DNA of 61,200 bases from Desulfopila aestuarii DSM 18488 (GTDB lineage: Bacteria > Desulfobacterota > Desulfobulbia > Desulfobulbales > Desulfocapsaceae): positions 1 through 61,200 of the forward strand of contig CAMBBS010000025.1 in the NCBI GenBank assembly GCA_945863875.1. The letters are read 5' to 3'. Each line of letters starts with the position of its first letter. The first letter of the stretch is position 1. This document shows positions 16,493 through 31,792 of the stretch, piece by piece. The position numbers and the translations under genes are program-made. The notes under the pieces are model-generated. The model was not told where the DNA came from. It worked only from the letters and a program-made list of their open reading frames with translations, and searched no databases.

Positions 16493-16888
16493 ATGAATTA
16501 TAACAATTCTACAGAAGCGTATATGCGATCGATCGCCAAAATCGGCGGACGGCAGCAGATCGGATCCCGGGATCTTTTTGATCTGTCCGGATGGCTGGTT
16601 TTGTGGAAACCTGTCGGCAGGATTATGTTGATGCTTTTCCCGGTGGTGCTGGTTATACAAATGTTCGTTGGTTCTGCCGTGACAAACACCGAGCAGACGA
16701 TTTCCATGATCGATAATCAGCGGCATGAACTGATGGATAAAAACATTGAACTGCTTGCCCAGAAGGCAAGCCTTTGGGCTCCCGAAAATATAGAGAAACT
16801 CGCCGGAGGAAAATTAGCACTCTATGCAACTTCCGGAGATCAGGTAGGAAGGTTCAATCGGAGCAACGGAACTTTTGTCTATCCCTGA
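16493..16888 (+). CDS. ftsL: Cell division protein FtsL (divergent)
   Basis: The call rests mainly on position between rsmH and the ftsI-like gene and on topology. The product has a cytoplasmic N-terminus of about 45 residues, one membrane segment (IMLMLFPVVLVIQMFVGSAV), then a short extracytoplasmic coiled-coil region (MIDNQRHELMDKNIELLAQKA) in a 131-residue protein. FtsL normally forms a heterotrimer with FtsB and FtsQ and activates FtsW-FtsI. GAGGGA precedes the ATG. Sequence conservation of FtsL is low throughout the family. Confidence 0.8.
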   Translation: MNYNNSTEAYMRSIAKIGGRQQIGSRDLFDLSGWLVLWKPVGRIMLMLFPVVLVIQMFVGSAVTNTEQTISMIDNQRHELMDKNIELLAQKASLWAPENIEKLAGGKLALYATSGDQVGRFNRSNGTFVYP

Positions 16889-16896
16889 TAAAAAAA

Positions 16897-18807
16897 ATGA
16901 TAAAAAAATCCCGCCTCAGATTGCAGAAAGAAAAAAAGGGGGGGCGGGTAATTCTTTCTCTGTTGATTGTTGCGGCACTTGGAGCTGCTTTATACCAGGT
17001 CGAACGGTACTACGGAATAACCAGCTCTCTCGAGGATCTTCTGCACACCGTAAAAAGCACCTTTTCCGGCAATGGTCCGGCCAGAGGAGCATTTTATGAC
17101 CGAAACCTCAAACAGCTTGCGGTAACTCTTGAACGGGTTTCGGTGTATGCAAGAACCCGGGAAATCGATTCTATCCAGCAAACGGCGGCTCAACTCGGTC
17201 AGATACTGGCTCTGGATAAGGATACCTTAGAAGAGCAGCTGCAAAGAGGTGCGCTGCGACTTTGGATCGCCAAAGATATAAGTCAGGAACAAGAACTTTC
17301 TCTTAATAATCTCCAACTGCCCGGAATATATCTGCAGAGAGATGAAAAGAGATATTATCCCAATGATTTTCAGGCAGCCCATATTGTCGGATATGTCGAA
17401 AACGGCATAGGTTTGGCCGGGGTGGAATTTTTTTATGATCGACTTTTGGCCGGCAGGAAAATAAAACAGCAGAAAGAACAGCAGCCCCTGAGTAATGCGC
17501 TGGACCTTGTGTTAAGCCTCGATCTGAAAATACAGGATATTCTCGAAACCCTCAGTGACGATATTGCTCGCAGTGAACAGGCGGCAAAAGTCACTGTCTA
17601 TCTGCTGGAAAGCGGCACCGGTGAAATAATCGGCGGTGTCAACCTGCCTGGGTTTAACCCTAACACCTTTACCAGATATTCTCAGGAACAGACGGAGAAT
17701 ATGTTTTTTGTTCCTCTCTGTATTCCTGAAAAATTTCGAATCTTCCTGCGGGATGCGACAATGCTGTACGCACAACCTGTGCATGACCTCTCACCCTCTG
17801 CCTGGAGTATTGTCCCGGAGAATAATGATCTCGGCAGTCAGCTGCGTTTCTGGGATTCTCTCGGGCTTCAGGAATCATCGAAAACTGATTTTCATGTGCC
17901 GGCACAATCCGGAAAGGCGGCAGCGAGCGAACAGAAGCCGGTCGTTGAACCAGTCGGATCATTCGGCTTTGTCCCGGAATCTGCCACACCTTCGCGGTTG
18001 CTGACCACCTTCTCTATTCTGCTCGGCAAAGGTGAAAAAATAGATCCTTTTGTCGTAAAAAAGGTTGTTGATAAAGAAACGGGTGAAGAGGTTCTCCTCT
18101 CGGGAAATGAAGAGAATGACAGCCGGTTGGCCAACTGGTCTGCCGCTGCAGGTGAGCGGCTGAAATCTTTTTTTGAAAGTCAGGCAAGCCGGGGAGCATC
18201 GGGGGCATATTTTTTCAGGGATGATATCCTGGTTACCGCTCTGCATGGCGGACGGCAGCACTATCTCATCAATGATGTTGTGTTTGCCACACTTCCTGCC
18301 GGAAGCAACGATATGCATATGCTGATTGTTGTGCAGCGGAGCCCGCTGGGAGTGAGCAGTGACGTGGACGAAAAAAGAAAAACTATCGAGCAGATTGTCG
18401 AAGAAAAGGTCGAGAGAATCTCGGTACTCCAGCAAATAGGCAAGTCTTTAGCCGATTTTGCAGAAACTGAGGTCGGGCACGAGGATAATTATCAGGCGGG
18501 GAACCGCCTGGCTCTTGAGTTGAGCGGCATTCTTAAAAAAGTTGAGAAAGAAGAACAGGTCACCCCCGGGGTCATGCCGGATCTGAAGGGGTTTAGTCTG
18601 AGAAAAAGTCTGCGTCTCCTGCAGGGGATACCTGTCGAGCTGCAAATCCAGGGAACAGGAAGGGTTGTCGATCAAAAGCCCCGGCCGGGGACCTCGTTGA
18701 AAGGAATAACCGAATGTGTCTTGATTCTTGAAAAGCAGGAGAATATAGTTCCAGATAAATTACCCAAGGGGCCGCCTGCAGGGGTGACCCCGGGAGACAA
18801 GAAATAA
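16897..18807 (+). CDS. ftsI: FtsI-like protein with degenerate transpeptidase domain and PASTA domain
   Basis: Order and overall fold are those of FtsI: membrane anchor (about residues 15-35), PBP dimer domain (GPARGAFYDRNLKQLA, AAHIVGYV, GVEFFYDRLLAG) and transpeptidase-like domain (LVLSLDLKIQDI, SFGFVPESATPSRLLT). A C-terminal PASTA repeat (about 560-618) starts MPDLKGFS. All three catalytic motifs are gone. The PGSTFK-type SxxK site reads CIPEKFRI (275-282), the SxN segment is deleted, and KTGT reads ALHGG (448-452). It should not acylate beta-lactams or cross-link glycan. I start it at ATG 16897, 8 bases after ftsL, although no clear ribosome site is present. The frame is intact over 636 residues, so this is a maintained pseudoenzyme rather than a pseudogene. 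Confidence 0.88.
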   Translation: MIKKSRLRLQKEKKGGRVILSLLIVAALGAALYQVERYYGITSSLEDLLHTVKSTFSGNGPARGAFYDRNLKQLAVTLERVSVYARTREIDSIQQTAAQLGQILALDKDTLEEQLQRGALRLWIAKDISQEQELSLNNLQLPGIYLQRDEKRYYPNDFQAAHIVGYVENGIGLAGVEFFYDRLLAGRKIKQQKEQQPLSNALDLVLSLDLKIQDILETLSDDIARSEQAAKVTVYLLESGTGEIIGGVNLPGFNPNTFTRYSQEQTENMFFVPLCIPEKFRIFLRDATMLYAQPVHDLSPSAWSIVPENNDLGSQLRFWDSLGLQESSKTDFHVPAQSGKAAASEQKPVVEPVGSFGFVPESATPSRLLTTFSILLGKGEKIDPFVVKKVVDKETGEEVLLSGNEENDSRLANWSAAAGERLKSFFESQASRGASGAYFFRDDILVTALHGGRQHYLINDVVFATLPAGSNDMHMLIVVQRSPLGVSSDVDEKRKTIEQIVEEKVERISVLQQIGKSLADFAETEVGHEDNYQAGNRLALELSGILKKVEKEEQVTPGVMPDLKGFSLRKSLRLLQGIPVELQIQGTGRVVDQKPRPGTSLKGITECVLILEKQENIVPDKLPKGPPAGVTPGDKK

Positions 18808-18865: not shown

Positions 18866-21800
18866 ATGTTTCAGCCTTGGTGTAAACCGACAATCTTTTA
18901 CAATACAATGCGCATGGCATCTTCGACAACACCCACGACAGTTGCATCTCTTCTCCACGGGCTGCGATATACATTGATCTCTTCCAACTCCGCCAGGACA
19001 ATGGATGAACAGCTGATCACCACGGTCGCCGTTGACTCGCGTCACGTTGTTCCAGGCAGTCTTTTTATCGCTCTTGCCGGAGTTGCCTGCGATGGTCACA
19101 ATTATATTGAGGCGGCTGTAGCTGCCGGATCCCCGGTCATAATCTGTGGTCCAGGAAGAATTGACCAAGCCCGGGCAAGAGACCTGCAGGCAACTGTCAT
19201 AGAAGTAGAAGATACCGCGCAGGCATATGCGGCCATCGCGGCAAACTTTTTTCATCGACCCGCGGAAAGACTGCACTTTATCGGTATCACCGGCACTAAT
19301 GGCAAGACTACATGTACCTATCTTCTCGAGCATGTTTTGCTGCAGGCGGGCATGGCGGTCGGGGTTATCGGAACGGTTAACAACAGGTACACCAACCGGC
19401 GGTTGGAGCAGAAGATTCTGCCAACCCGCTTTACTACCCCGGAGGCTTTTTTGCTTCAGGAATTGTTGCGAGAAATGGTTGATAATGGGGTGGACCAGGT
19501 GATTATGGAGGTGTCGTCGCATGCCTTGGCCCAGTCGCGCATCGGCTCCATCTCGTTTGATGCTGCCGCTTTTACCAATCTGTCCCGGGATCATCTGGAT
19601 TATCATACAGGCATGGAAGATTATTTTCAGGCCAAGGCTCGTCTCTTTTCGGAGTATATGAAAAATACCGGGACAGCAGTTCTGCCGAGAGTGCACGGGA
19701 GTTCGGAGGAAAAAGAATGGCTGCATCTGCTGCAGGATATTTGTGACAAAAGGTGCAGGAAAACGATACGATGGGGCGAAGAAGAGGGGGCGGAGGTCTG
19801 GCTGCGGAGTTACTCGACTACCCTTGAGCAGACGGATCTCGTTCTTGCGACCCCTTCCGGCCGGCATACTCTTTCGTCGCCGCTGGTCGGGCGCTACAAT
19901 ATAGATAATATCTTGACCGTTTACAGTCTCTGTCTGGCCCTGGGCCTTGATGAGGCCTTTATCTGCCGCGCTCTGGCCACAGCTGCCGGAGCTCCCGGAA
20001 GACTCGAGCGGGTCAGCACTGGTTCGGCCTGGGAGAGAAAGGGGCCGGTGGTGCTGGTTGATTATGCGCACACCCCGGACGCTCTGGAAAAAGTGCTGAC
20101 AACCGTGGCTGCTCTGCCGCATAATAAGTTGGTCTGTGTCTTTGGCTGCGGCGGGGACAGGGATCAGGGTAAGCGGCCGCTGATGGGCGAAATTGCGGGA
20201 AAATTATGTGATATCGCTGTAGTGACGGATGATAATCCACGCAACGAAGACCCTGAACGAATAGTGGCGCAGATTCTTAGTGGACTGCGCAAAACGACGC
20301 TGCCCCGGCTGGAAGTGAAAAATGATATATCTCTCCAGGTAACAAGCAGCAAAGATTTTGGATATGTGGTAATACGTGACAGGCAAAAAGCGATCGATGC
20401 AGCGATTCGGGCGGCTTCGCCTGGAGATATCGTCGTTATTGCCGGCAAAGGCCATGAGCCCTACCAATTGACCCTGCAGGGAAAACGTTTTTTTGATGAT
20501 CGCCTGGCCGCAAAACGCGTGCTCTTCTCGTGGACGGCGGAGCTGGTGGCGACTGCAGCGGGAGGCAGATTGTACCCAGGGAAGAATCCAGTAGATTCGA
20601 CGAAATTACTCGGCCCGGTCATTACCGATAGCAGGCTAGTCAGCCGCGATGGGATTTTTGTCGCCCTGAAAGGAGAAAGCCATGATGCCCATGACTTTGC
20701 CTGGCAGGCGGTGGAAAATGGTGCTGCCTGCCTGGTGGTTGAAAAAAGGCTTTCTCTCCCACCCGAGTTGGCGGTTTGTCAGGTAGAAGTTGAGGATACC
20801 TCGCAGGCCCTGGGCGACATGGCTGCCTTTCGTCGGAGGCAGCTGGCCGGGCAATGCGACCAGGTCATCATCGGCCTTACCGGGAGCTGTGGCAAGACCA
20901 CCGTCAAAGAGATGGTTGCGGCAATACTTGCGCGGATGTGGCCGGCAGGACCTGATTTTCCTGCCGAATGTGTCTTGAAAACAAAAGGAAATTTTAATAA
21001 TCTTATCGGCCTGCCCCTGTCTCTGCTGCCGCTTGATGTTGAACATCGCGCAGCGGTGCTGGAAATGGGTATGAACCGGCCCGGTGAACTCAAACGGCTC
21101 GGGGCCATCGCCGACCCTGATATCAGCTGTATCACCAACATCCATGGGGCGCACCTGGAGGGCTTGCAGTCGATTGAAGGAGTCGCCAGGGCGAAAGAAG
21201 AGCTTTTTGCCGCAACGAAAGAGTCAGGCATACTGGTTGTCAATCTTGATGATCGCCGAATCTGCGAGCTCTTGAGGAAATATACGCATCGGAAAATTAC
21301 CTTCGCCGTGCACGGTTCAGCGGGACAGCAGCAGGCAGATCTCTGGTCCTCTGAAATGCATATGGCGGAAGGCGGTGCTATCACCTTTACCCTGCATTAC
21401 CGGGAAGAGGCGGTCGGAATCCGCCTCTTTATTGCCGGAGAGCACAATGTCTCCAACGCCCTCTGTGCCGCCGCCATCGGCCTTGCGGCCGGTGCATCAC
21501 TGCAGCACATTGCTGCCGGGCTCGCTGATTTTCGGCCGCCGGATAAACGCATGGAAATGCTCCGTGCCAGATCCGGCTTCACCATAATCAATGACACCTA
21601 CAATGCCAACCCGGCATCAATGGCCGCCGGCCTGAAGACATTGAGGATGATAGCAGGAAAAGCTTCCGTCGCCGTTATCGGTGACATGCGAGAACTTGGT
21701 GCCGCTGCCAGGCAGGCGCATTGCGACATCGGCACATTGATTGCTGAATTGGCGATTGATTGGGTCGGAGTGGTTGGGGAATTTAAGAAAGATGTGGTAC

Positions 21801-21985
21801 AGGGAGCGCTCGACCACGGTTATCCGGAGGATCGTCTCCTTCTCTTTGAGGACAAAGAAGGGGCCGCTCGATGGATTCATGACCTGGTTGACCGCAAAAA
21901 GCTTGGCCAGGATGATGTGGTCCTCGTCAAGGCCTCGCGAGGTCTGCGCTTTGAGACCATCGTCGGAGAAATTATTGATTTTTGA
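18866..21985 (+). CDS. murE-murF: Bifunctional MurE-MurF fusion ligase
   Basis: One 1039-residue frame holds two Mur ligases. MurE (about 1-550) has P-loop GITGTNGKTT near 140-149, EVSSHALAQSRI, and DNPR near 455-458, the motif for meso-diaminopimelate. MurF (about 552-1039) has P-loop TGSCGKTT near 671, AVLEMGMNRPGEL and INDTYNANPASM. Together they add meso-DAP and then D-Ala-D-Ala to UDP-MurNAc-dipeptide in the cytoplasm. The two are normally adjacent separate genes. ATG 18866 has AGGGTG upstream; ATGs at 18908 and 18914 are alternatives that fit the usual MurE N-terminus better. Confidence 0.95.
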   Translation: MFQPWCKPTIFYNTMRMASSTTPTTVASLLHGLRYTLISSNSARTMDEQLITTVAVDSRHVVPGSLFIALAGVACDGHNYIEAAVAAGSPVIICGPGRIDQARARDLQATVIEVEDTAQAYAAIAANFFHRPAERLHFIGITGTNGKTTCTYLLEHVLLQAGMAVGVIGTVNNRYTNRRLEQKILPTRFTTPEAFLLQELLREMVDNGVDQVIMEVSSHALAQSRIGSISFDAAAFTNLSRDHLDYHTGMEDYFQAKARLFSEYMKNTGTAVLPRVHGSSEEKEWLHLLQDICDKRCRKTIRWGEEEGAEVWLRSYSTTLEQTDLVLATPSGRHTLSSPLVGRYNIDNILTVYSLCLALGLDEAFICRALATAAGAPGRLERVSTGSAWERKGPVVLVDYAHTPDALEKVLTTVAALPHNKLVCVFGCGGDRDQGKRPLMGEIAGKLCDIAVVTDDNPRNEDPERIVAQILSGLRKTTLPRLEVKNDISLQVTSSKDFGYVVIRDRQKAIDAAIRAASPGDIVVIAGKGHEPYQLTLQGKRFFDDRLAAKRVLFSWTAELVATAAGGRLYPGKNPVDSTKLLGPVITDSRLVSRDGIFVALKGESHDAHDFAWQAVENGAACLVVEKRLSLPPELAVCQVEVEDTSQALGDMAAFRRRQLAGQCDQVIIGLTGSCGKTTVKEMVAAILARMWPAGPDFPAECVLKTKGNFNNLIGLPLSLLPLDVEHRAAVLEMGMNRPGELKRLGAIADPDISCITNIHGAHLEGLQSIEGVARAKEELFAATKESGILVVNLDDRRICELLRKYTHRKITFAVHGSAGQQQADLWSSEMHMAEGGAITFTLHYREEAVGIRLFIAGEHNVSNALCAAAIGLAAGASLQHIAAGLADFRPPDKRMEMLRARSGFTIINDTYNANPASMAAGLKTLRMIAGKASVAVIGDMRELGAAARQAHCDIGTLIAELAIDWVGVVGEFKKDVVQGALDHGYPEDRLLLFEDKEGAARWIHDLVDRKKLGQDDVVLVKASRGLRFETIVGEIIDF

Positions 21986-22095: not shown

Positions 22096-23175
22096 ATGCT
22101 GTATCATCTTTTTTATCCACTGCATACCAGTTTGAGCGGCTTGAATGTCTTCCGCTACATAACTTTCCGTTCCATAGGCGGGGCAGTTACCGCGTTTTTG
22201 CTTGTCCTTATTCTTGGCCAGATTTTTATACGAACCATGCGCCATTATCAGATTGGTCAGGTGGTGCGTGACGACGGTCCAGAGACGCATCTGGCCAAGC
22301 AGGGCGTGCCGACCATGGGCGGCCTGCTGATTCTTACCGCCGTCACCGTTGGGACTCTGCTCTGGGCGCGGCTCGATAACTCCCTGGTGTGGCTTGGCTT
22401 GTCGGTGACCTTGTTTTACGGTTGCATTGGCGCAATTGACGATTTGCGCAAGATACGAAAAAACAACTCCAAAGGCTTGAGTGCCCGGTGGAAGCTGGCC
22501 CTGCAGATTTTCGGGGCCTCGATGGTTGGCCTGGTTATCTTTCTGCATCCAGGCTTTGATGGGCATCTGAGTCTGCCGTTTTTGAAAAACTTTCGTCCTG
22601 ATCTCGGCTGGTTTTATATTGTCTTTGCGACCATCGTCATTGTCGGGGCATCGAATGCGGTCAACCTCACCGATGGACTCGATGGTCTGGCTGCCGGGCC
22701 AACGGTGGTCACCGCCGCGGTGTATCTGGTCTTTTCCTATCTGGCCGGCCATGTGGTGCTGGCCGAATACCTGCAGATTCCCTATGTCGCCGGCAGTGGT
22801 GAGCTGGCCATATTCTGCGGGACGCTCTTTGGAGCATGTCTTGGCTTTTTGTGGTTCAACGCCTATCCGGCGCAGATGTTCATGGGAGATGTTGGCTCGC
22901 TGGCCATCGGTGGGGCTCTTGGTTCCACGGCGATAATCATCAAGCAGGAATTTCTGCTGGCGATTGTCGGAGGAATTTTTGTCATGGAGGCCTTGTCGGT
23001 GATTCTGCAGGTCGGCTACTTCAAGATGACCCATGGAAAGCGGATCTTTTTAATGGCCCCTTTTCACCACCATTTTGAGAAAAAAGGCTGGCATGAACCA
23101 AAGGTTGTCGTCAGATTCTGGATTGTATCGATTGTTCTCGGCCTTGTTGCCATTGCCACATTGAAACTACGCTAG
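22096..23175 (+). CDS. mraY: Phospho-N-acetylmuramoyl-pentapeptide transferase MraY
   Basis: MraY makes lipid I at the inner membrane. The 359-residue polytopic protein shows the family signatures FIRTMRHYQIGQVVRDDGPETH, QGVPTMGGLL, the aspartates in IGAIDDLRK, NLTDGLDGLAAG, FMGDVGSLAIGG and the HHHFEKKGW segment. A 110-base gap separates it from murE-murF. The stop TAG shares a base with the murD GTG. Confidence 0.98.
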   Translation: MLYHLFYPLHTSLSGLNVFRYITFRSIGGAVTAFLLVLILGQIFIRTMRHYQIGQVVRDDGPETHLAKQGVPTMGGLLILTAVTVGTLLWARLDNSLVWLGLSVTLFYGCIGAIDDLRKIRKNNSKGLSARWKLALQIFGASMVGLVIFLHPGFDGHLSLPFLKNFRPDLGWFYIVFATIVIVGASNAVNLTDGLDGLAAGPTVVTAAVYLVFSYLAGHVVLAEYLQIPYVAGSGELAIFCGTLFGACLGFLWFNAYPAQMFMGDVGSLAIGGALGSTAIIIKQEFLLAIVGGIFVMEALSVILQVGYFKMTHGKRIFLMAPFHHHFEKKGWHEPKVVVRFWIVSIVLGLVAIATLKLR

Positions 23176-24569
23176 TGAAGAAGACATCCTTGATATATCC
23201 CGGCGTGAGAGTTGCGGTCATGGGACTCGGCGTCACCGGTCGAGCCGCTGTTCGCTATAGTCTTTCCTGCGGGGCCGAAGTCCTGGTCTCGGACAGCCGA
23301 CTGGAGCAGCGCTTTCTTGCCGAGGAAGGTACTTTGCTCGCTGCGACGGCCATAGCCTGGGAAGCGGGTGGCCACAGCTATGAGTTTTTACACCGGGCAG
23401 ACCTCCTTCTGGTCAGTCCCGGCGTTGATCTGGATCTGCCGCTGCTGCAGAGACTGCGGGCTGACGGAGTACGGATCGTCGGGGAACTCGCCATCGCTGC
23501 CGGTCAGATTGATGTGCCGGTGGTGGCTGTTACCGGGACCAACGGTAAAACGACGGTGACGACCCTCATCGGCGAAATCTGCCGGAGTGCCGGTAAAAAA
23601 GTCTTTGTCGGCGGGAATATCGGTACCCCCCTGTATGAGTATCTGCTAGATCCGGCTGGCTATGACATGGTGGTGGTGGAACTGTCCAGCTTTCAGCTGG
23701 AGAGTGGTGGGGCTTTTTCTCCCGATGTCGGGTTGCTGCTGAATATCACCCCGGACCATCTGGACAGGCATCTTTCAATGGAAAGATATGTGCAGGCGAA
23801 GATGCAGTTATTTCTGCACGCGAAAGCCGAGACCGTGGTGGTTATCAATGGCGATGATCCCCTCTGTCGACTGCTTCCACCTGGACTGCCGGCAGTAGTG
23901 AACACCTTCGGTAAAAGTGAGGGCTGCACGGCAAGATGCGCTGATAAGCGGATCAGCCTCCTGGTGGATAACGAGCAGGAAGAGTATTGCTTTGAAGACC
24001 TTGAGGGCATCAATGACATCACCCTGATGAATTATGCCGCGGCTATCCTGGCGGTCCGCTCGCTGGGCTGCAGCCACCGAACCACCGAGGCCGGACTCCG
24101 AGTTTTTTGTCCGCTGCCGCATCGTATCGAGTTTGTTGCCGAGGTAAACGGGGTAGACTATTTTAACGACTCCAAGGCGACGAATACCGGTGCGGTCATT
24201 GGCGCTCTGGCTCAGTTTGAAAAAAATGTCATTTTGCTCGCTGGGGGGCGTGACAAAGGGGATGATTACCGTCTGCTGCGCGAGAGTGTGGCGGCGGGGG
24301 TAAAAAAAATGATCGTTCTTGGTGAATCAGCCGGGCTCCTGCGCGATGCGCTGGCCGATATCGTCGACATACAGCCGGCGCAGTCCATGGCGGACGCGGT
24401 GCAGATAGCGGCCCGGGAGGCCATGCCGGGCGATATCGTCCTGCTCTCTCCGGCCTGTGCCAGTTTTGACATGTTTACCAGTTATGGCCATCGGGGCAAC
24501 GAATTCAAAAAGGCGGTACTGGCCCTGCCGTCCGCCTTGGGCGATAAGAAAATGGGGGAGGCGGCTTGA
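23175..24569 (+). CDS. murD: UDP-N-acetylmuramoyl-L-alanine:D-glutamate ligase MurD
   Basis: The 464-residue Mur ligase has an N-terminal Rossmann domain (RVAVMGLGVTGRAAVRY), P-loop TGTNGKTTVTT, ELSSFQLE, NITPDHLDRH, FNDSKATN and the C-terminal SPACASFDMFTSYGHRGNEFK. It adds D-Glu to UDP-MurNAc-L-Ala. Its stop overlaps the murG start by 4 bases, leaving no room for ftsW, which normally sits between these two genes. Confidence 0.98.
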   Translation: MKKTSLIYPGVRVAVMGLGVTGRAAVRYSLSCGAEVLVSDSRLEQRFLAEEGTLLAATAIAWEAGGHSYEFLHRADLLLVSPGVDLDLPLLQRLRADGVRIVGELAIAAGQIDVPVVAVTGTNGKTTVTTLIGEICRSAGKKVFVGGNIGTPLYEYLLDPAGYDMVVVELSSFQLESGGAFSPDVGLLLNITPDHLDRHLSMERYVQAKMQLFLHAKAETVVVINGDDPLCRLLPPGLPAVVNTFGKSEGCTARCADKRISLLVDNEQEEYCFEDLEGINDITLMNYAAAILAVRSLGCSHRTTEAGLRVFCPLPHRIEFVAEVNGVDYFNDSKATNTGAVIGALAQFEKNVILLAGGRDKGDDYRLLRESVAAGVKKMIVLGESAGLLRDALADIVDIQPAQSMADAVQIAAREAMPGDIVLLSPACASFDMFTSYGHRGNEFKKAVLALPSALGDKKMGEAA

Positions 24570-25696
24570 GCGGAAAAGATCAGAAAATACGACTGCTTCT
24601 CACCGGCGGCGGCACAGGAGGGCATCTGTTTCCAGCGGTGGCCACCGCCCAGGAGTTCAAGAAGCAGCGGCCGGATACGGAAGTGCTCTTTGTCGGTACC
24701 AGAAGGAAAATGGACAGCAAAAGTCTTGGGGCCTACGGCTTTACCAGTGCGAGTATCCTCTGTTACGGCCTGAAGGGTAAAAATCCTCTGGAACTTCTCA
24801 AAGCTCTTGCCGTACTGCCCTTGTCGTACCTGCAGGCACTGCTGCTCATTCGCCATTTTAAACCGGACATTATCTTTGGCGTGGGTGGCTATGTCACCGG
24901 TCCGGTGGTTATGGCCGGAAAAAATCTCGGTATTCCAGTGGTTATCCATGAGCAGAATTCAGTACCTGGGCTGGCCAATCGAAAACTCGGCAAAATAGCC
25001 GACAGGGTGTGTCTGTCGCTGCCCGGCAGCGGCACGGAATTCCCGGCGGAGAAAATACTTTACACCGGCAATCCGGTGCGCAGTAAAATTCTTGAACTGG
25101 CAAAAAAAGCTCCGCCGCGAAAAAATGAAAAACGAACCCTGCTCATTCTCGGCGGCAGCCAGGGGGCACAGGCGGTAAACACCATGGTATCCGAGGCATT
25201 ATGTTTAATGACCGATGACGAATTGCGGCCTATCAGGGTGATTCACCAGACCGGCGACAGGGATGAAGCGCAGGTAAAAGGAGCATATCGACAACGGGGA
25301 GTAGACGCCGAGGTGGCCGGATTTTTTACGCAGATGGATGAAATCTATGCACAGGCGGATCTCCTCGTCAGTAGAGCCGGGGCGACCACTCTCTCGGAAA
25401 TAGCGGTGCTCGGCAAACCGGCGATTCTTATCCCCTATCCCTCTGCCGCCGACAACCACCAGGAAAAAAATGGCGACTATTATGTATCTGGCGGTGGCGC
25501 CGTCCAATTCAGACAAAAGGAACTGACCGTACAACAGCTCGGGGCGACCATCCTCCAGCTGATCAATAATGAACAGCAATTGCATGCCATGGGGGCGGCG
25601 ATGAAACGACTCGCATTTCCCGATGCGGCCAAAAGAATTGTGGCCTGCTGCCTGGCGGAAAAAGAGAAGCATCAGCGGGACAAGAATGAAGCATAA
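24566..25696 (+). CDS. murG: UDP-GlcNAc:lipid I N-acetylglucosaminyltransferase MurG
   Basis: MurG converts lipid I to lipid II on the cytoplasmic face of the membrane. The 376-residue GT-B protein has the N-terminal [11 protein letters not shown] loop, [34 protein letters not shown] and the C-terminal donor motif [31 protein letters not shown]. It begins with TTG/ATG-type overlap on murD and its stop overlaps the murC ATG by one base. Confidence 0.97.
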
Positions 25697-28030: not shown

Positions 28031-29059
28031 ATGAAAATGTTACTCGCCAAAATAAAAAAAATATTTTCAACTTTGGCCGGCAAGAAGAAGGGGGGCAATG
28101 GCTATCTGCAAAGTAATCTTGACCTTTCACCTCTATCCGGACAAAGTAGTCGGCAAAGCGGTCAATATACCCCGCAGAAAAAGAGATTGGCCCGTTTCAG
28201 GCAGGTGTTGACCGCAAAAAAAAGAGCAAACTCAAACCACGGGGTATATACAACAGGTACGGCGGCAAAAAGAAAATTGATTTTCAAGATGGCCGGGTTA
28301 GCCACGCTTACCGCCTCTCTTCTCTTCTTTATGTTCGTCGGCGGTTGGCAGATTGTTCTGCAAAATCTCGAAACAGTACCCTTCTTTCAGGTTTCGGGGG
28401 TAGTTTTTTCCGGCACGGAAACCATCGCGGAAGGGAAATTGCGAGAGGCTTCCGGAATCATTGTCCACAAGACAAGTTTGATTGGTCTGGACTGTCGCCG
28501 GGTGGAGGCCTCGCTTCTCAACGTTCCTTGGGTGGCCCGGGCGGTGGTGAAACGGAATTGGCCGTCAACCGTGGAGATTGCCATTGTTGAAAATGTCCCG
28601 GTGGCCCTTTTACACAGCAAAAGTCTGCAAGGAGTCCAGTTGCAGTATATTGACCGGAAAGGGGTACCGTTTCTGCAGGTCAAGCCTGGCGCCGATATTG
28701 ATTTCCCTGTTATTACAGGATTGACGGAGATTGCAGATCCTCTGACGAGAGAAAAATCCCTTGCTGAGGTGCTGGTCTTGCTGAAGAATATTAACGGCAA
28801 CAATCCTTATCTTCCGGCGCAGTCGGTTTCAGAGGTTCATCTGAACAGGGAGGGAGAAATGGTGGTGTATCTCGTTGAAAATCCCTTTCCTATTTTCTTT
28901 GGCAGCAGCGATACAAATAAGAAGTATGCTCGGCTGGTACAGGTTCTCAAGGTATTGTATAAAAATCAGAAAGGAAAAGGGTCGATTTCTCAAATTAAAT
29001 ACATTCAGATGGATTATTTGCAGGACAAGGTGCTCGTCGCAGAGAGTGAATCAAGTTAG
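28031..29059 (+). CDS. ftsQ: Cell division protein FtsQ
   Basis: The 342-residue protein has a long basic cytoplasmic region (about 1-80) and one membrane segment (about 83-105, LATLTASLLFFMFVGGW). A POTRA domain follows (VSGVVFSGTETIAEGKLREASGI, then LLNVPWVARAVVKRNWPSTVEIAIVENVPVAL), then the FtsQ beta domain. FtsQ links early and late divisome proteins and binds FtsL and FtsB. The cytoplasmic part is longer than in E. coli. It starts 2 bases after murB. Confidence 0.93.
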   Translation: MKMLLAKIKKIFSTLAGKKKGGNGYLQSNLDLSPLSGQSSRQSGQYTPQKKRLARFRQVLTAKKRANSNHGVYTTGTAAKRKLIFKMAGLATLTASLLFFMFVGGWQIVLQNLETVPFFQVSGVVFSGTETIAEGKLREASGIIVHKTSLIGLDCRRVEASLLNVPWVARAVVKRNWPSTVEIAIVENVPVALLHSKSLQGVQLQYIDRKGVPFLQVKPGADIDFPVITGLTEIADPLTREKSLAEVLVLLKNINGNNPYLPAQSVSEVHLNREGEMVVYLVENPFPIFFGSSDTNKKYARLVQVLKVLYKNQKGKGSISQIKYIQMDYLQDKVLVAESESS

Positions 29060-29170: not shown

Positions 29171-30457
29171 ATGAATGACAATAATAAAAATGTAGTGATT
29201 ACCGACCTTGATGCTGACCGGGCCGATGAAAAAAATGCCGACTATCAGGCGTCAGGAGAACTTGTCGTCGGTCTTGACATCGGCACGACGAAGATCTGCT
29301 GTGTCGTCGGAGAGGTGTTCGATGACCGGGTTGAGATAATAGGGGTGGGGACGGTGCCTTCCCTGGGCCTGAAAAAAGGTGTTGTCGTCAATATCGAGTC
29401 CACTGTCAATTCCATTCGGCAGGCGGTTATACTTGCAGAGGAATCTGCCGGTTGTGATTTGCGGTCAGTCTATGTTTATGTCGGAATTGCCGGAAATCAT
29501 ATAAAAGGCTTTAACAGCCCTGGTATAGTCGCTGTCAATAACCGGGAAATTAAAGCGGCGGATATTGAGGAGGTTATCGCGGCAGCCAGGACCGTTAAGA
29601 TCTCTGAAAACCAGCGTATTATCCATGTCCTGCCCCAGGAATACATGGTCGACGATCATACCGGAATCCAGAATCCCATCGGCATGACCGGAGTGCGGCT
29701 GGTCACCAACGTGCACATTGTTACGGCAGACATCGGTGCGGTACACAATCTGGTCACCTGCTGCAATAAGGCCGGACTGCAGGTCGCCGAGCTGGTTCTC
29801 GAATCAATTGCCTCGGCCAATTCCGTTTTGAGCAAGGATGAGATGGAGTTGGGCGTCGCACTGATTGATATCGGCGGAGGGACAACCGACCTGGCCATTT
29901 TCTACGATGGGACGATTCGTCATACCTGCGAAATCGGGTTGGGGGGGCATAATCTTACCAATGACCTGTCCGTCGGCCTGCGTACCCCGCTTCAGGAAGC
30001 GGAACGGTTAAAAGAAGATTTCGGCGGGGCGATTGCCTCCTTTATTAAGCCCAATCTTGTGGTAGATGTTCCGACGGTAGGGGATCGGGAACCGCGAAAG
30101 GTGACCCAGAAGGTCCTGGTCGACATTCTCGAGGCGAGGATAGTGGAAATCCTCGAGATGATGAACAGCGAGATGGTTGCCTCCGGACAAAAAAATAAGA
30201 TCAACGGAGGCGTGGTCCTCACCGGTGGGACGGCTCTTCTGGCCAACCTTGTTGAGCTGGCTGAACAGATTTTTGATTTACCGGTGAGGATAGGTTATCC
30301 AACCGGAATAACGGGCAGGGTTGAGGAACTGCACAGTCCTCGATGCACGACAGCGACGGGTCTGGTTCTTTTTGGCAGGAATGCGCGTAACGAGATAGGC
30401 AGGCAGGACAGCTCCTTTATTGGCAGAGTAAAAGAGTGGATTAAAAAAATCATGTGA
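29171..30457 (+). CDS. ftsA: Cell division protein FtsA
   Basis: The 428-residue actin-like ATPase has VVGLDIGTTKICCVV (phosphate 1), the 1C domain with NSPGIVAVNNREI, LIDIGGGTTDLAIF (phosphate 2), GGHNLTNDL and VLTGGTALLANL (adenosine motif). The C-terminal amphipathic helix (RVKEWIKKIM) anchors it to the membrane. It tethers FtsZ to the membrane and starts divisome assembly. It has a slightly extended acidic N-terminus. Confidence 0.98.
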   Translation: MNDNNKNVVITDLDADRADEKNADYQASGELVVGLDIGTTKICCVVGEVFDDRVEIIGVGTVPSLGLKKGVVVNIESTVNSIRQAVILAEESAGCDLRSVYVYVGIAGNHIKGFNSPGIVAVNNREIKAADIEEVIAAARTVKISENQRIIHVLPQEYMVDDHTGIQNPIGMTGVRLVTNVHIVTADIGAVHNLVTCCNKAGLQVAELVLESIASANSVLSKDEMELGVALIDIGGGTTDLAIFYDGTIRHTCEIGLGGHNLTNDLSVGLRTPLQEAERLKEDFGGAIASFIKPNLVVDVPTVGDREPRKVTQKVLVDILEARIVEILEMMNSEMVASGQKNKINGGVVLTGGTALLANLVELAEQIFDLPVRIGYPTGITGRVEELHSPRCTTATGLVLFGRNARNEIGRQDSSFIGRVKEWIKKIM

Positions 30458-30571: not shown

Positions 30572-31792
30572 ATGCCGTTTAGGATGGCTGAATCAGAAGG
30601 TGTTGCCGTGGTGAAAGTAATTGGTGTCGGTGGGGGTGGCGGTAATGCTATCAACACGATGGTCGCCAATAGACTTCAGGGAGTAGAGTTCATTGTAGCC
30701 AATACTGATAAGCAGTCGCTTAATCAGTCAAAGGCTGATGTCTGTCTGCAAATCGGGCCGAGTATTACCAAAGGCCTCGGCGCGGGAGCAGACCCGGAAA
30801 CCGGGAATATGGCAGCCATGGAGTCTGTGGAGGAAATCAAAGCGGCTCTTAAAGGCAGTGATATGGTGTTCGTCACAGCCGGACTTGGCGGGGGGACAGG
30901 AACCGGCGCAGCCCCTGTTGTGGCCAGGGCAAGCAAAGAACTCGGCGCCTTGACCGTTGCTGTAGTGACCAAGCCATTTAGCTTTGAGGGCAAATACCGC
31001 GCCCGAAATGCCGAGGAGGGCTGGCAGGAGCTGCAAAAATATGTCGACACGATCATCACCGTGCCTAACGACAGGCTTCTCTCCATAATGCAGAAAAACA
31101 GCAAACTCTCCGATATGCTGGCTATGGCGGATAATGTTTTGCTCCAGGCGGTAAAGGGTATTACCGATCTGATCAATGTTCCAGGGCTGATCAATGCCGA
31201 TTTTGCCGACCTGCGAACAGTGATGAGAGAGGTCGGCCCGGCTGTCATGGGTTCCGGTTCTGCAACCGGTGAGAACCGTGCAACCGAGGCCGCCAGGAAG
31301 GCCATAGACAATCAACTGCTTGAAGACTTCGGCATCGATGGAGCACGCGGTCTACTCATTAATATCTCGGCCTCGGAGGCAAGCTTCACTATGGCCGAAT
31401 TCATGGAGGCGTCTGCGCTCATTCAAGAAAAAGTCGATGATGATGCGAAAGTAGTCATTGGTGCCCTCTATGACGATGCCCTTGGAGATGAATTGCATGT
31501 TACAGTTATTGCCACCGGGGTAGGCGGGATGGTCAACAAGAAAGAGACTATCAATCCGGTCCAGGATCATATGCGGAGGCCGTTACCGATTAAAGAACCA
31601 GAGATTGTCGTCAAAGGGTCGCCGGCTGCCCCGAACAAACAGCCCAGGGTGACGCGGCTGCCCGGTTCAAACTTTGACGCACTGGACAATCTAGGTTCCT
31701 CAAATATCCCCGAGGGCAAGGCGACAACCTCGCTTAACTGGAATGATGATTATCTCGAGACTCCGACATATCTGCGAAAAAAGGCCAACTGA
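30572..31792 (+). CDS. ftsZ: Cell division GTPase FtsZ
   Basis: The 406-residue tubulin homologue has VKVIGVGGGGGNAIN, the tubulin signature GGGTGTGAAPVVA, the T7-loop NADFADLRTVM and a long linker. The tail LETPTYLRKKA is the conserved C-terminal peptide that binds FtsA. It forms the Z ring. GGGAGGAG at 30562-30569 is the strongest ribosome site in the cluster, suiting the high FtsZ level. The 114-base gap upstream may hold its own promoter (TTGCAC, 17 bases, TATCTC near 30506-30534). Confidence 0.99.
   Translation: MPFRMAESEGVAVVKVIGVGGGGGNAINTMVANRLQGVEFIVANTDKQSLNQSKADVCLQIGPSITKGLGAGADPETGNMAAMESVEEIKAALKGSDMVFVTAGLGGGTGTGAAPVVARASKELGALTVAVVTKPFSFEGKYRARNAEEGWQELQKYVDTIITVPNDRLLSIMQKNSKLSDMLAMADNVLLQAVKGITDLINVPGLINADFADLRTVMREVGPAVMGSGSATGENRATEAARKAIDNQLLEDFGIDGARGLLINISASEASFTMAEFMEASALIQEKVDDDAKVVIGALYDDALGDELHVTVIATGVGGMVNKKETINPVQDHMRRPLPIKEPEIVVKGSPAAPNKQPRVTRLPGSNFDALDNLGSSNIPEGKATTSLNWNDDYLETPTYLRKKAN

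Follow-up and report, generated by a model that had tools for sequence, protein, structure and literature searches.

The window, by which we mean the whole 61,200-nucleotide stretch of Desulfopila aestuarii DSM 18488 analysed here, carries a dcw cluster with the gene order mraZ, rsmH, ftsL, ftsI, murE-murF (one fused open reading frame), mraY, murD, murG, murC, murB, ftsQ, ftsA and ftsZ. We named ftsI, murE-murF and ftsQ by Pfam and ftsL, weakly, by NCBIfam. The rest were named by position and sequence, and for the proteins named in this way other genomes have counterparts in their dcw loci. The features relevant to this work are the following:

16493..16888, + strand: ftsL, divergent (NCBIfam ftsL_broad at E 0.0033, below cut-off; position)
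16897..18807, + strand: pseudo-FtsI gene in the ftsI slot of the dcw cluster, predicted to encode a catalytically dead class B PBP of 636 aa (open frame, Pfam, joint alignment)
16939..17013, + strand: predicted membrane helix, residues 15-39 (helix in the AlphaFold2 model; membrane nature judged from sequence)
17077..17481, + strand: PBP dimer (pedestal) domain, residues 61-195, with blocks RGxxYDRN, RxYP and GLxGxE (Pfam PF03717 and invariant columns)
17494..18486, + strand: pseudo-transpeptidase domain, residues about 200-530 (fold kept, catalytic residues absent)
17725..17754, + strand: PEKFRIFLRD at the SxxK position (joint alignment)
17830..17847, + strand: LGSQLR at the SxN position, residues 312-317 (joint alignment)
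18238..18252, + strand: ALHGG at the expected place of KTG, residues 448-452 (joint alignment)
18571..18729, + strand: C-terminal PASTA repeat, residues about 559-611 (Pfam and alignment conservation)
23175..24569, + strand: murD, overlapped by murG, with the usual ftsW slot empty (locus reading)
24566..25696, + strand: murG (position and sequence; counterparts in other dcw loci)
28031..29059, + strand: ftsQ, with POTRA_1 and FtsQ_DivIB_C (Pfam)
29171..30457, + strand: ftsA (position and sequence; counterparts in other dcw loci)
30572..31792, + strand: ftsZ (position and sequence; counterparts in other dcw loci)

The fused murE and murF occupy a single 1039-aa frame (window 18866-21985). At this place, 39 of the 55 named loci L118-L172 have frames above 800 aa, as do 4 of the 20 loci L098-L117 and, outside the class Desulfobulbia, L235.

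An FtsI without its catalytic motifs

An earlier note, made from the letters alone, had proposed that this ftsI encodes a dead penicillin-binding protein in an intact frame that keeps its dimer domain and a PASTA repeat. The frame is indeed open for all 636 codons. The dimer domain matches PF03717 at E 7.1e-16 (59.6 bits against a cut-off of 24.4), and the PASTA repeat is present at E 1.9e-4, although its 21.7 bits fall just under the Pfam cut-off of 23.2. The transpeptidase family PF00905 gave no Pfam match even with the limit set at E 10, and the class B PBP matches in NCBIfam were all far below their cut-offs. The protein thus has the dimer domain and the place between ftsL and murE of an FtsI enzyme and, by prediction, the transpeptidase fold and the N-terminal membrane helix, but lacks SxxK, SxN and KTG motifs in register.

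At the three catalytic sites the joint alignment places PEKFRI (residues 277-282, in the SxxK column and on model helix 278-292), LGSQLR, and a gap at the K column beside ALHGG. The first and the last of these replacements had been read correctly in the note. Its claim that the SxN segment is deleted holds for the loss of the motif but not for a clean deletion: the segment is replaced, and the stretch between the SxxK and SxN sites is about 18 residues shorter (36 vs 54 in L238). A string scan of the whole protein revealed no intact SxxK/SxN/KTG set elsewhere: S..K strings occur only at 344 and 567, the latter inside the PASTA repeat, S.N strings only at 57, 135 and 402, and K[TS]G is absent from all 636 residues. 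At the level of its residues, the window FtsI is confirmed as a catalytically dead class B PBP in an intact frame.

We aligned 92 dead rows (89 from Desulfobulbia including the window, and 3 from other families; 79 distinct sequences) jointly with 10 live class B PBPs. All seven motif residues are kept in 10/10 live rows, and the triad, which the note had described as lost altogether, is found in 0/92 dead rows. The SxxK columns of the dead rows hold the S in two cases, the K in one and both in none. S and N of SxN occur together in two rows (L109 and L113), and the K of KTG in one, the full KTG being absent from every row and the K column gapped in 72/92. A scan of 105 ORFs of the class (the window included, 4 of them partial) with a spacing pattern gave a single match; it lies in L103, at 121/210/385, and thus not at the transpeptidase positions. 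Among live class B PBP controls this pattern, cruder than the alignment, found 23 of 25.

Sequencing error was rejected as the origin of the motif loss, and with it the chance that the note had been misled by a faulty gene: motif-free homologues occur in many separate assemblies and named strains. The contig scan yielded relatives named as Desulforhopalus, Desulfopila, Desulfofustis, Desulfocapsa and Desulfoprunum, among others, and these assign the window to the class Desulfobulbia. Of 57 genomes searched with P0001, that of the window among them, 56 gave a match; the sole miss was G022, from the same family. Viral contigs, scanned once with P0001, gave no confirmed viral relative. Elsewhere in the order, the match in other families is often limited to the first half or to the PASTA end, and four loci, from those families or from G028, have partial ORFs under 560 aa.

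Conservation of the pseudo-FtsI

The dN/dS ratio over the gene is about 0.22 against L118 and 0.15 against L119 (64 and 63% identity), rough values given that dS is near saturation. Against these near relatives, the pseudo-FtsI is shown to be under purifying selection. The constraint is uneven: it is stronger on the dimer and PASTA parts than on the pseudo-transpeptidase, which changes faster in the same dN/dS comparison, and the PASTA repeat ranks with the best conserved regions of the whole protein. We inspected two alignments: A1, with 38 proteins (the window and 37 others) from the 50 loci L009-L038 and L098-L117, and A4, with the window and 51 of the 55 named loci L118-L172 (L131, L149, L156 and L158 left out). 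Eight dimer-domain columns are invariant in both (R63, D68, G143, R152, G165, G172, G175 and E177). At E <= 0.01, PBP_dimer and PASTA are recognised in 52/52 rows of A4 and PF00905 in 44/52, the window protein not being among the latter.

A structure prediction and a comparison with FtsI had been suggested in the note. The AlphaFold2 model of the window protein, built on the 52-row alignment (pLDDT 79.9, pTM 0.71), matched FtsI-type PBPs by Foldseek: PBP2X 1rp5 at E 9.1e-25, SpoVD 7rcz, and Pseudomonas aeruginosa PBP3 7onx with a TM score of 0.65 by target length and 0.50 by query length (rmsd 8.0). As modelled, a still recognisable transpeptidase fold persists without the catalytic residues.

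These data bear on whether the gene is a functionless remnant in decay. The faster change of the pseudo-transpeptidase would be expected of such a remnant, as would the shortened versions of FtsI in other families and the lack of a plain full-length copy in two genomes of the window's own family, G022 with no match and G028 with a match split over two frames. Against it stand dN/dS ratios well under 1, full-length open frames in all 14 other genomes of the same genus (14/14), and a common new pattern at the old active site: P-x3-[RK]-x4-[DE] lies on the serine helix in 61/73 rows of the window's side of the class (48/60 distinct), and in 0/19 other dead rows and 0/10 live rows. Narrower FRx[FL]-type LRD ends are found at the SxxK site in 22/73 rows. 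We regard decay as very improbable. The purifying selection would be explained if the protein were still a non-catalytic part of the divisome, and the structural divisome scaffold imagined in the note would fit both the selection pattern and published parallels.

Missing ftsW and the remaining synthases

The window's genome, a draft of 93 contigs that is 98.5% complete, yielded one SEDS gene in a profile search of the whole genome. This gene is rodA, adjoining PBP2, and its neighbours resemble mreD, mreC and mreB, with MreB confirmed, an mre-type cluster. Five genes match PF00905: PBP2 (with STYK and KTG), the only one whose protein has a dimer domain, and four others. A GT51 domain is present in three of these; the reading of the fourth covered its C-terminal part only. 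The search for a second class B PBP with intact motifs, proposed in the note, returned only PBP2, beside RodA. Neither a second SEDS gene (FtsW) nor a second recognised active class B PBP was found by profile searches of the whole genome. What division of the Clostridioides difficile type presupposes is found here: no active FtsW-FtsI pair, and class A PBPs present. The absence of ftsW, the position of PBP2 as sole recognised active class B PBP, and the age of this state are points that go beyond the note.

Two contigs of this genome (G000:C37 and G000:C13) encode very long transpeptidase proteins, with frames of 1157 and 1134 aa and split PF00905 matches; the former has GT51. Both proteins are candidates for unusual septal synthases. 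L,D-transpeptidases were also considered as a replacement: the three YkuD matches of the genome may add cross-links, but nothing ties these proteins to division.

Among 144 Desulfobulbia genomes, 138 have a SEDS match and 6 have none, and two full-length SEDS genes were found in 0/144 (G046 and G154 have two pieces). An FtsW or an active FtsI might have been overlooked elsewhere in the 93-contig draft, or an active site might have gone unrecognised. We find this hardly credible, given that the whole-genome profile searches detected neither protein and that eleven class genomes assembled in one contig have one SEDS match each (G019, G027, G028, G039, G066, G074, G088, G103, G117, G125 and G129), a twelfth, G046, having two pieces of one. 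In that genome the only SEDS gene is split into two abutting matches (C1:137697-138757), either a sequencing fault or a real break. Another class genome, G105 (L269; listed as 90% complete), has a dcw cluster with a dead FtsI and zero PF00905 or SEDS matches, and its assembly may be incomplete.

Outside the class, at least two SEDS matches were found in 105 of 142 genomes of the phylum, one in 33 and none in 4. We checked 20 of these genomes for PBP_dimer genes and read the dcw locus in 17, chosen for contrast and hence a non-random sample. Seven of the 17 loci combine a live FtsI with a SEDS gene, and two of these (G174 and G223) come from genomes with one SEDS match only. The other ten have a dead or shortened FtsI and no SEDS gene, and belong to seven families (f31, f38, f42, f43, f68, f69 and f75). 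Overall, a SEDS gene lies in the dcw locus in 7/7 live loci (6 of them with both murD and murG), in 0/66 dead loci with murD and murG, and in 0/86 dead loci in total. Dated by the dcw-encoded FtsI of relatives, as the note had advised, the loss is old, extending throughout the Desulfobulbia loci read and to the seven further families of the phylum.

A quick-method tree built from nine dcw proteins (41 rows; L174, L180 and L114 left out) requires two changes of state, and we rejected a single loss for all dead lineages on these grounds. We read it as two putative losses, one in the line of Desulfobulbia with f31, f43, f69 and f75, the placement of f31 being weakly supported, and one in the line of f38, f42 and f68. 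The row that falls nearest to the window belongs to Desulfopila sp. IMCC35006, with 78% identity across 2714 columns. An earlier FastTree that included L174, L180 and L114 placed two betaproteobacteria with live FtsI inside the dead side, which we took for a probable long-branch effect.

The families f38 and f68 have at the FtsI place a protein of about 250-330 aa made up only of a membrane segment joined by a linker to a PASTA-like end (L229:16076-16819, L230, L233 and L234), the PASTA match being at E 0.012 in the one protein scanned. Between murD and murG, in the ftsW slot, lies a membrane protein of about 263-270 aa (L229:10088-10897, L230, L233:9695-10489). The two of these proteins that were scanned had no Pfam match up to E 10, and we did not adopt a decayed FtsW as their identity.

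That little beyond a membrane segment and a PASTA-like end remains in f38 and f68, and that PASTA is among the best conserved parts elsewhere, would suit a pseudo-FtsI working outside the divisome in another periplasmic role, for instance sensing wall fragments by its PASTA repeat. We consider this unlikely, since the gene has kept its dcw place between rsmH/ftsL and murE and the blocks of the pedestal domain are preserved.

Division without FtsW-FtsI

We propose that in an ancestor of Desulfobulbia and some relatives ftsW would have been lost from the dcw cluster and FtsI would have lost its catalytic residues. With both gone, no FtsW-FtsI septal synthase is encoded, as the profile searches and alignments show for the genomes covered. 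Judged by sequence, the loss of the septal SEDS-class B PBP synthase is real, old and spread across the class, which has conserved a pseudo-FtsI. This protein retains a predicted membrane helix, its pedestal domain, a pseudo-transpeptidase predicted to fold, and the PASTA repeat. Retention of the pedestal blocks, of the N-terminal helix and of the place in dcw suggests that the protein may serve as a non-catalytic divisome part that links FtsQ-FtsL and the new septal wall to the remaining synthases. Provided that these cells make a septal wall, a dead FtsI implies that cross-linking has been handed to another enzyme, as the note supposed, and in Desulfobulbia the division wall is probably the work of other enzymes. 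Septal wall would be made by class A PBPs, as in C. difficile, with or without RodA-PBP2. We prefer class A PBPs because C. difficile divides in this way, with a non-catalytic class B PBP.

The main rival has RodA-PBP2 performing both elongation and division, with the pseudo-FtsI recruiting or activating it at the ring. This pair is the only SEDS-class B PBP pair found in the window's genome, and the SEDS match present in 138/144 genomes of the class speaks for it too, but its mre-type cluster is the usual setting of elongation. A second argument against it comes from G058, a genome listed as 99% complete, with a dcw cluster carrying ftsA, ftsZ and a dead FtsI. Profile searches of this genome returned neither a SEDS nor a PBP2-like match; for the MreB profile the matches were all weak, and one of them is its ftsA. 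One of its four PF00905 matches (C58:60447-60839) is the dead FtsI; the other three lie in frames of 645, 786 and 1139 aa, which by size alone resemble class A PBPs. G058 points to class A PBPs as septum makers, in a suggestive way only: its absences may reflect one assembly gap, because mreB, PBP2 and rodA are neighbours in the genome of the window. We hold a RodA-PBP2 septum to be possible, though on the doubtful side.

That FtsI is a non-catalytic scaffold, with class A PBPs and/or RodA-PBP2 making the septal wall, we consider likely. A more specific version we advance tentatively, with slightly less than even confidence: an FtsZ divisome without a dedicated SEDS-class B PBP synthase, in which the pseudo-FtsI would be an adaptor for class A PBPs (possibly sensing the wall by PASTA). 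Such a divisome would have had at least two origins in the phylum, with FtsI reduced in one lineage to little beyond a membrane anchor and PASTA.

The FtsW-FtsI pair is regarded as universally conserved, and as essential for making septal wall, with exceptions described in C. difficile and many Clostridia (PMC10693644) and in part of the PVC superphylum (PMC12283558). Here a Gram-negative class lacks ftsW in every genome sampled for it, yet keeps a dead FtsI, a natural experiment in which the structural role of FtsI would be separated from catalysis. Unusual responses to beta-lactams are predicted, as there would be no active FtsI to hit, and roles of FtsI other than cross-linking become testable in culturable Desulforhopalus, Desulfofustis and Desulfobulbus. 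In a literature search of titles and abstract openings, with few subscription papers, we found no report of a dead FtsI in this group.

With FtsI of the PBP3, PBP2X and SpoVD type the window protein shares the dcw position, the N-terminal helix, the dimer domain and the transpeptidase-type fold, whereas here all three catalytic motifs and the partner FtsW are absent. A PASTA repeat is also present in PBP2X, as in the window FtsI.

The Desulfobulbia include the cable bacteria, and a survey of these and of Desulfobulbus reports zipA, ftsW and ftsN as absent from four Desulfobulbaceae genomes (PMC7873302). It concerns the same class and the same absence of ftsW, and the portion of the survey available to us names FtsI as recruited to the division plane and makes no mention of its inactivity (PMC7873302). 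The absence of ftsW was in part already known; the dead FtsI and its extent are apparently new.

In C. difficile, the class A enzyme PBP1 is reported to drive division, the class B enzyme PBP3 being non-catalytic in complex with it (PMC12539705). As here, vegetative division proceeds without a functional FtsW-FtsI and a class B PBP has a non-catalytic role (PMC10693644, PMC12539705). RodA-PBP2 is described as the essential SEDS-class B pair of that species, and is the sole such pair found in the window's genome. C. difficile, by the accounts available, keeps dcw-encoded SpoVD-SpoVE for sporulation, whereas here the dcw copy is dead, ftsW is missing and the class is Gram-negative. In Bacillus subtilis, a catalytically inactive PBP2B is reported to support division if PBP3 is present, a structural role of an FtsI-type protein apart from catalysis, like that proposed here (PMC5656894). 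That protein, as described, is a laboratory mutant that needs PBP3, while the inactive FtsI of Desulfobulbia would be the natural state of a class.
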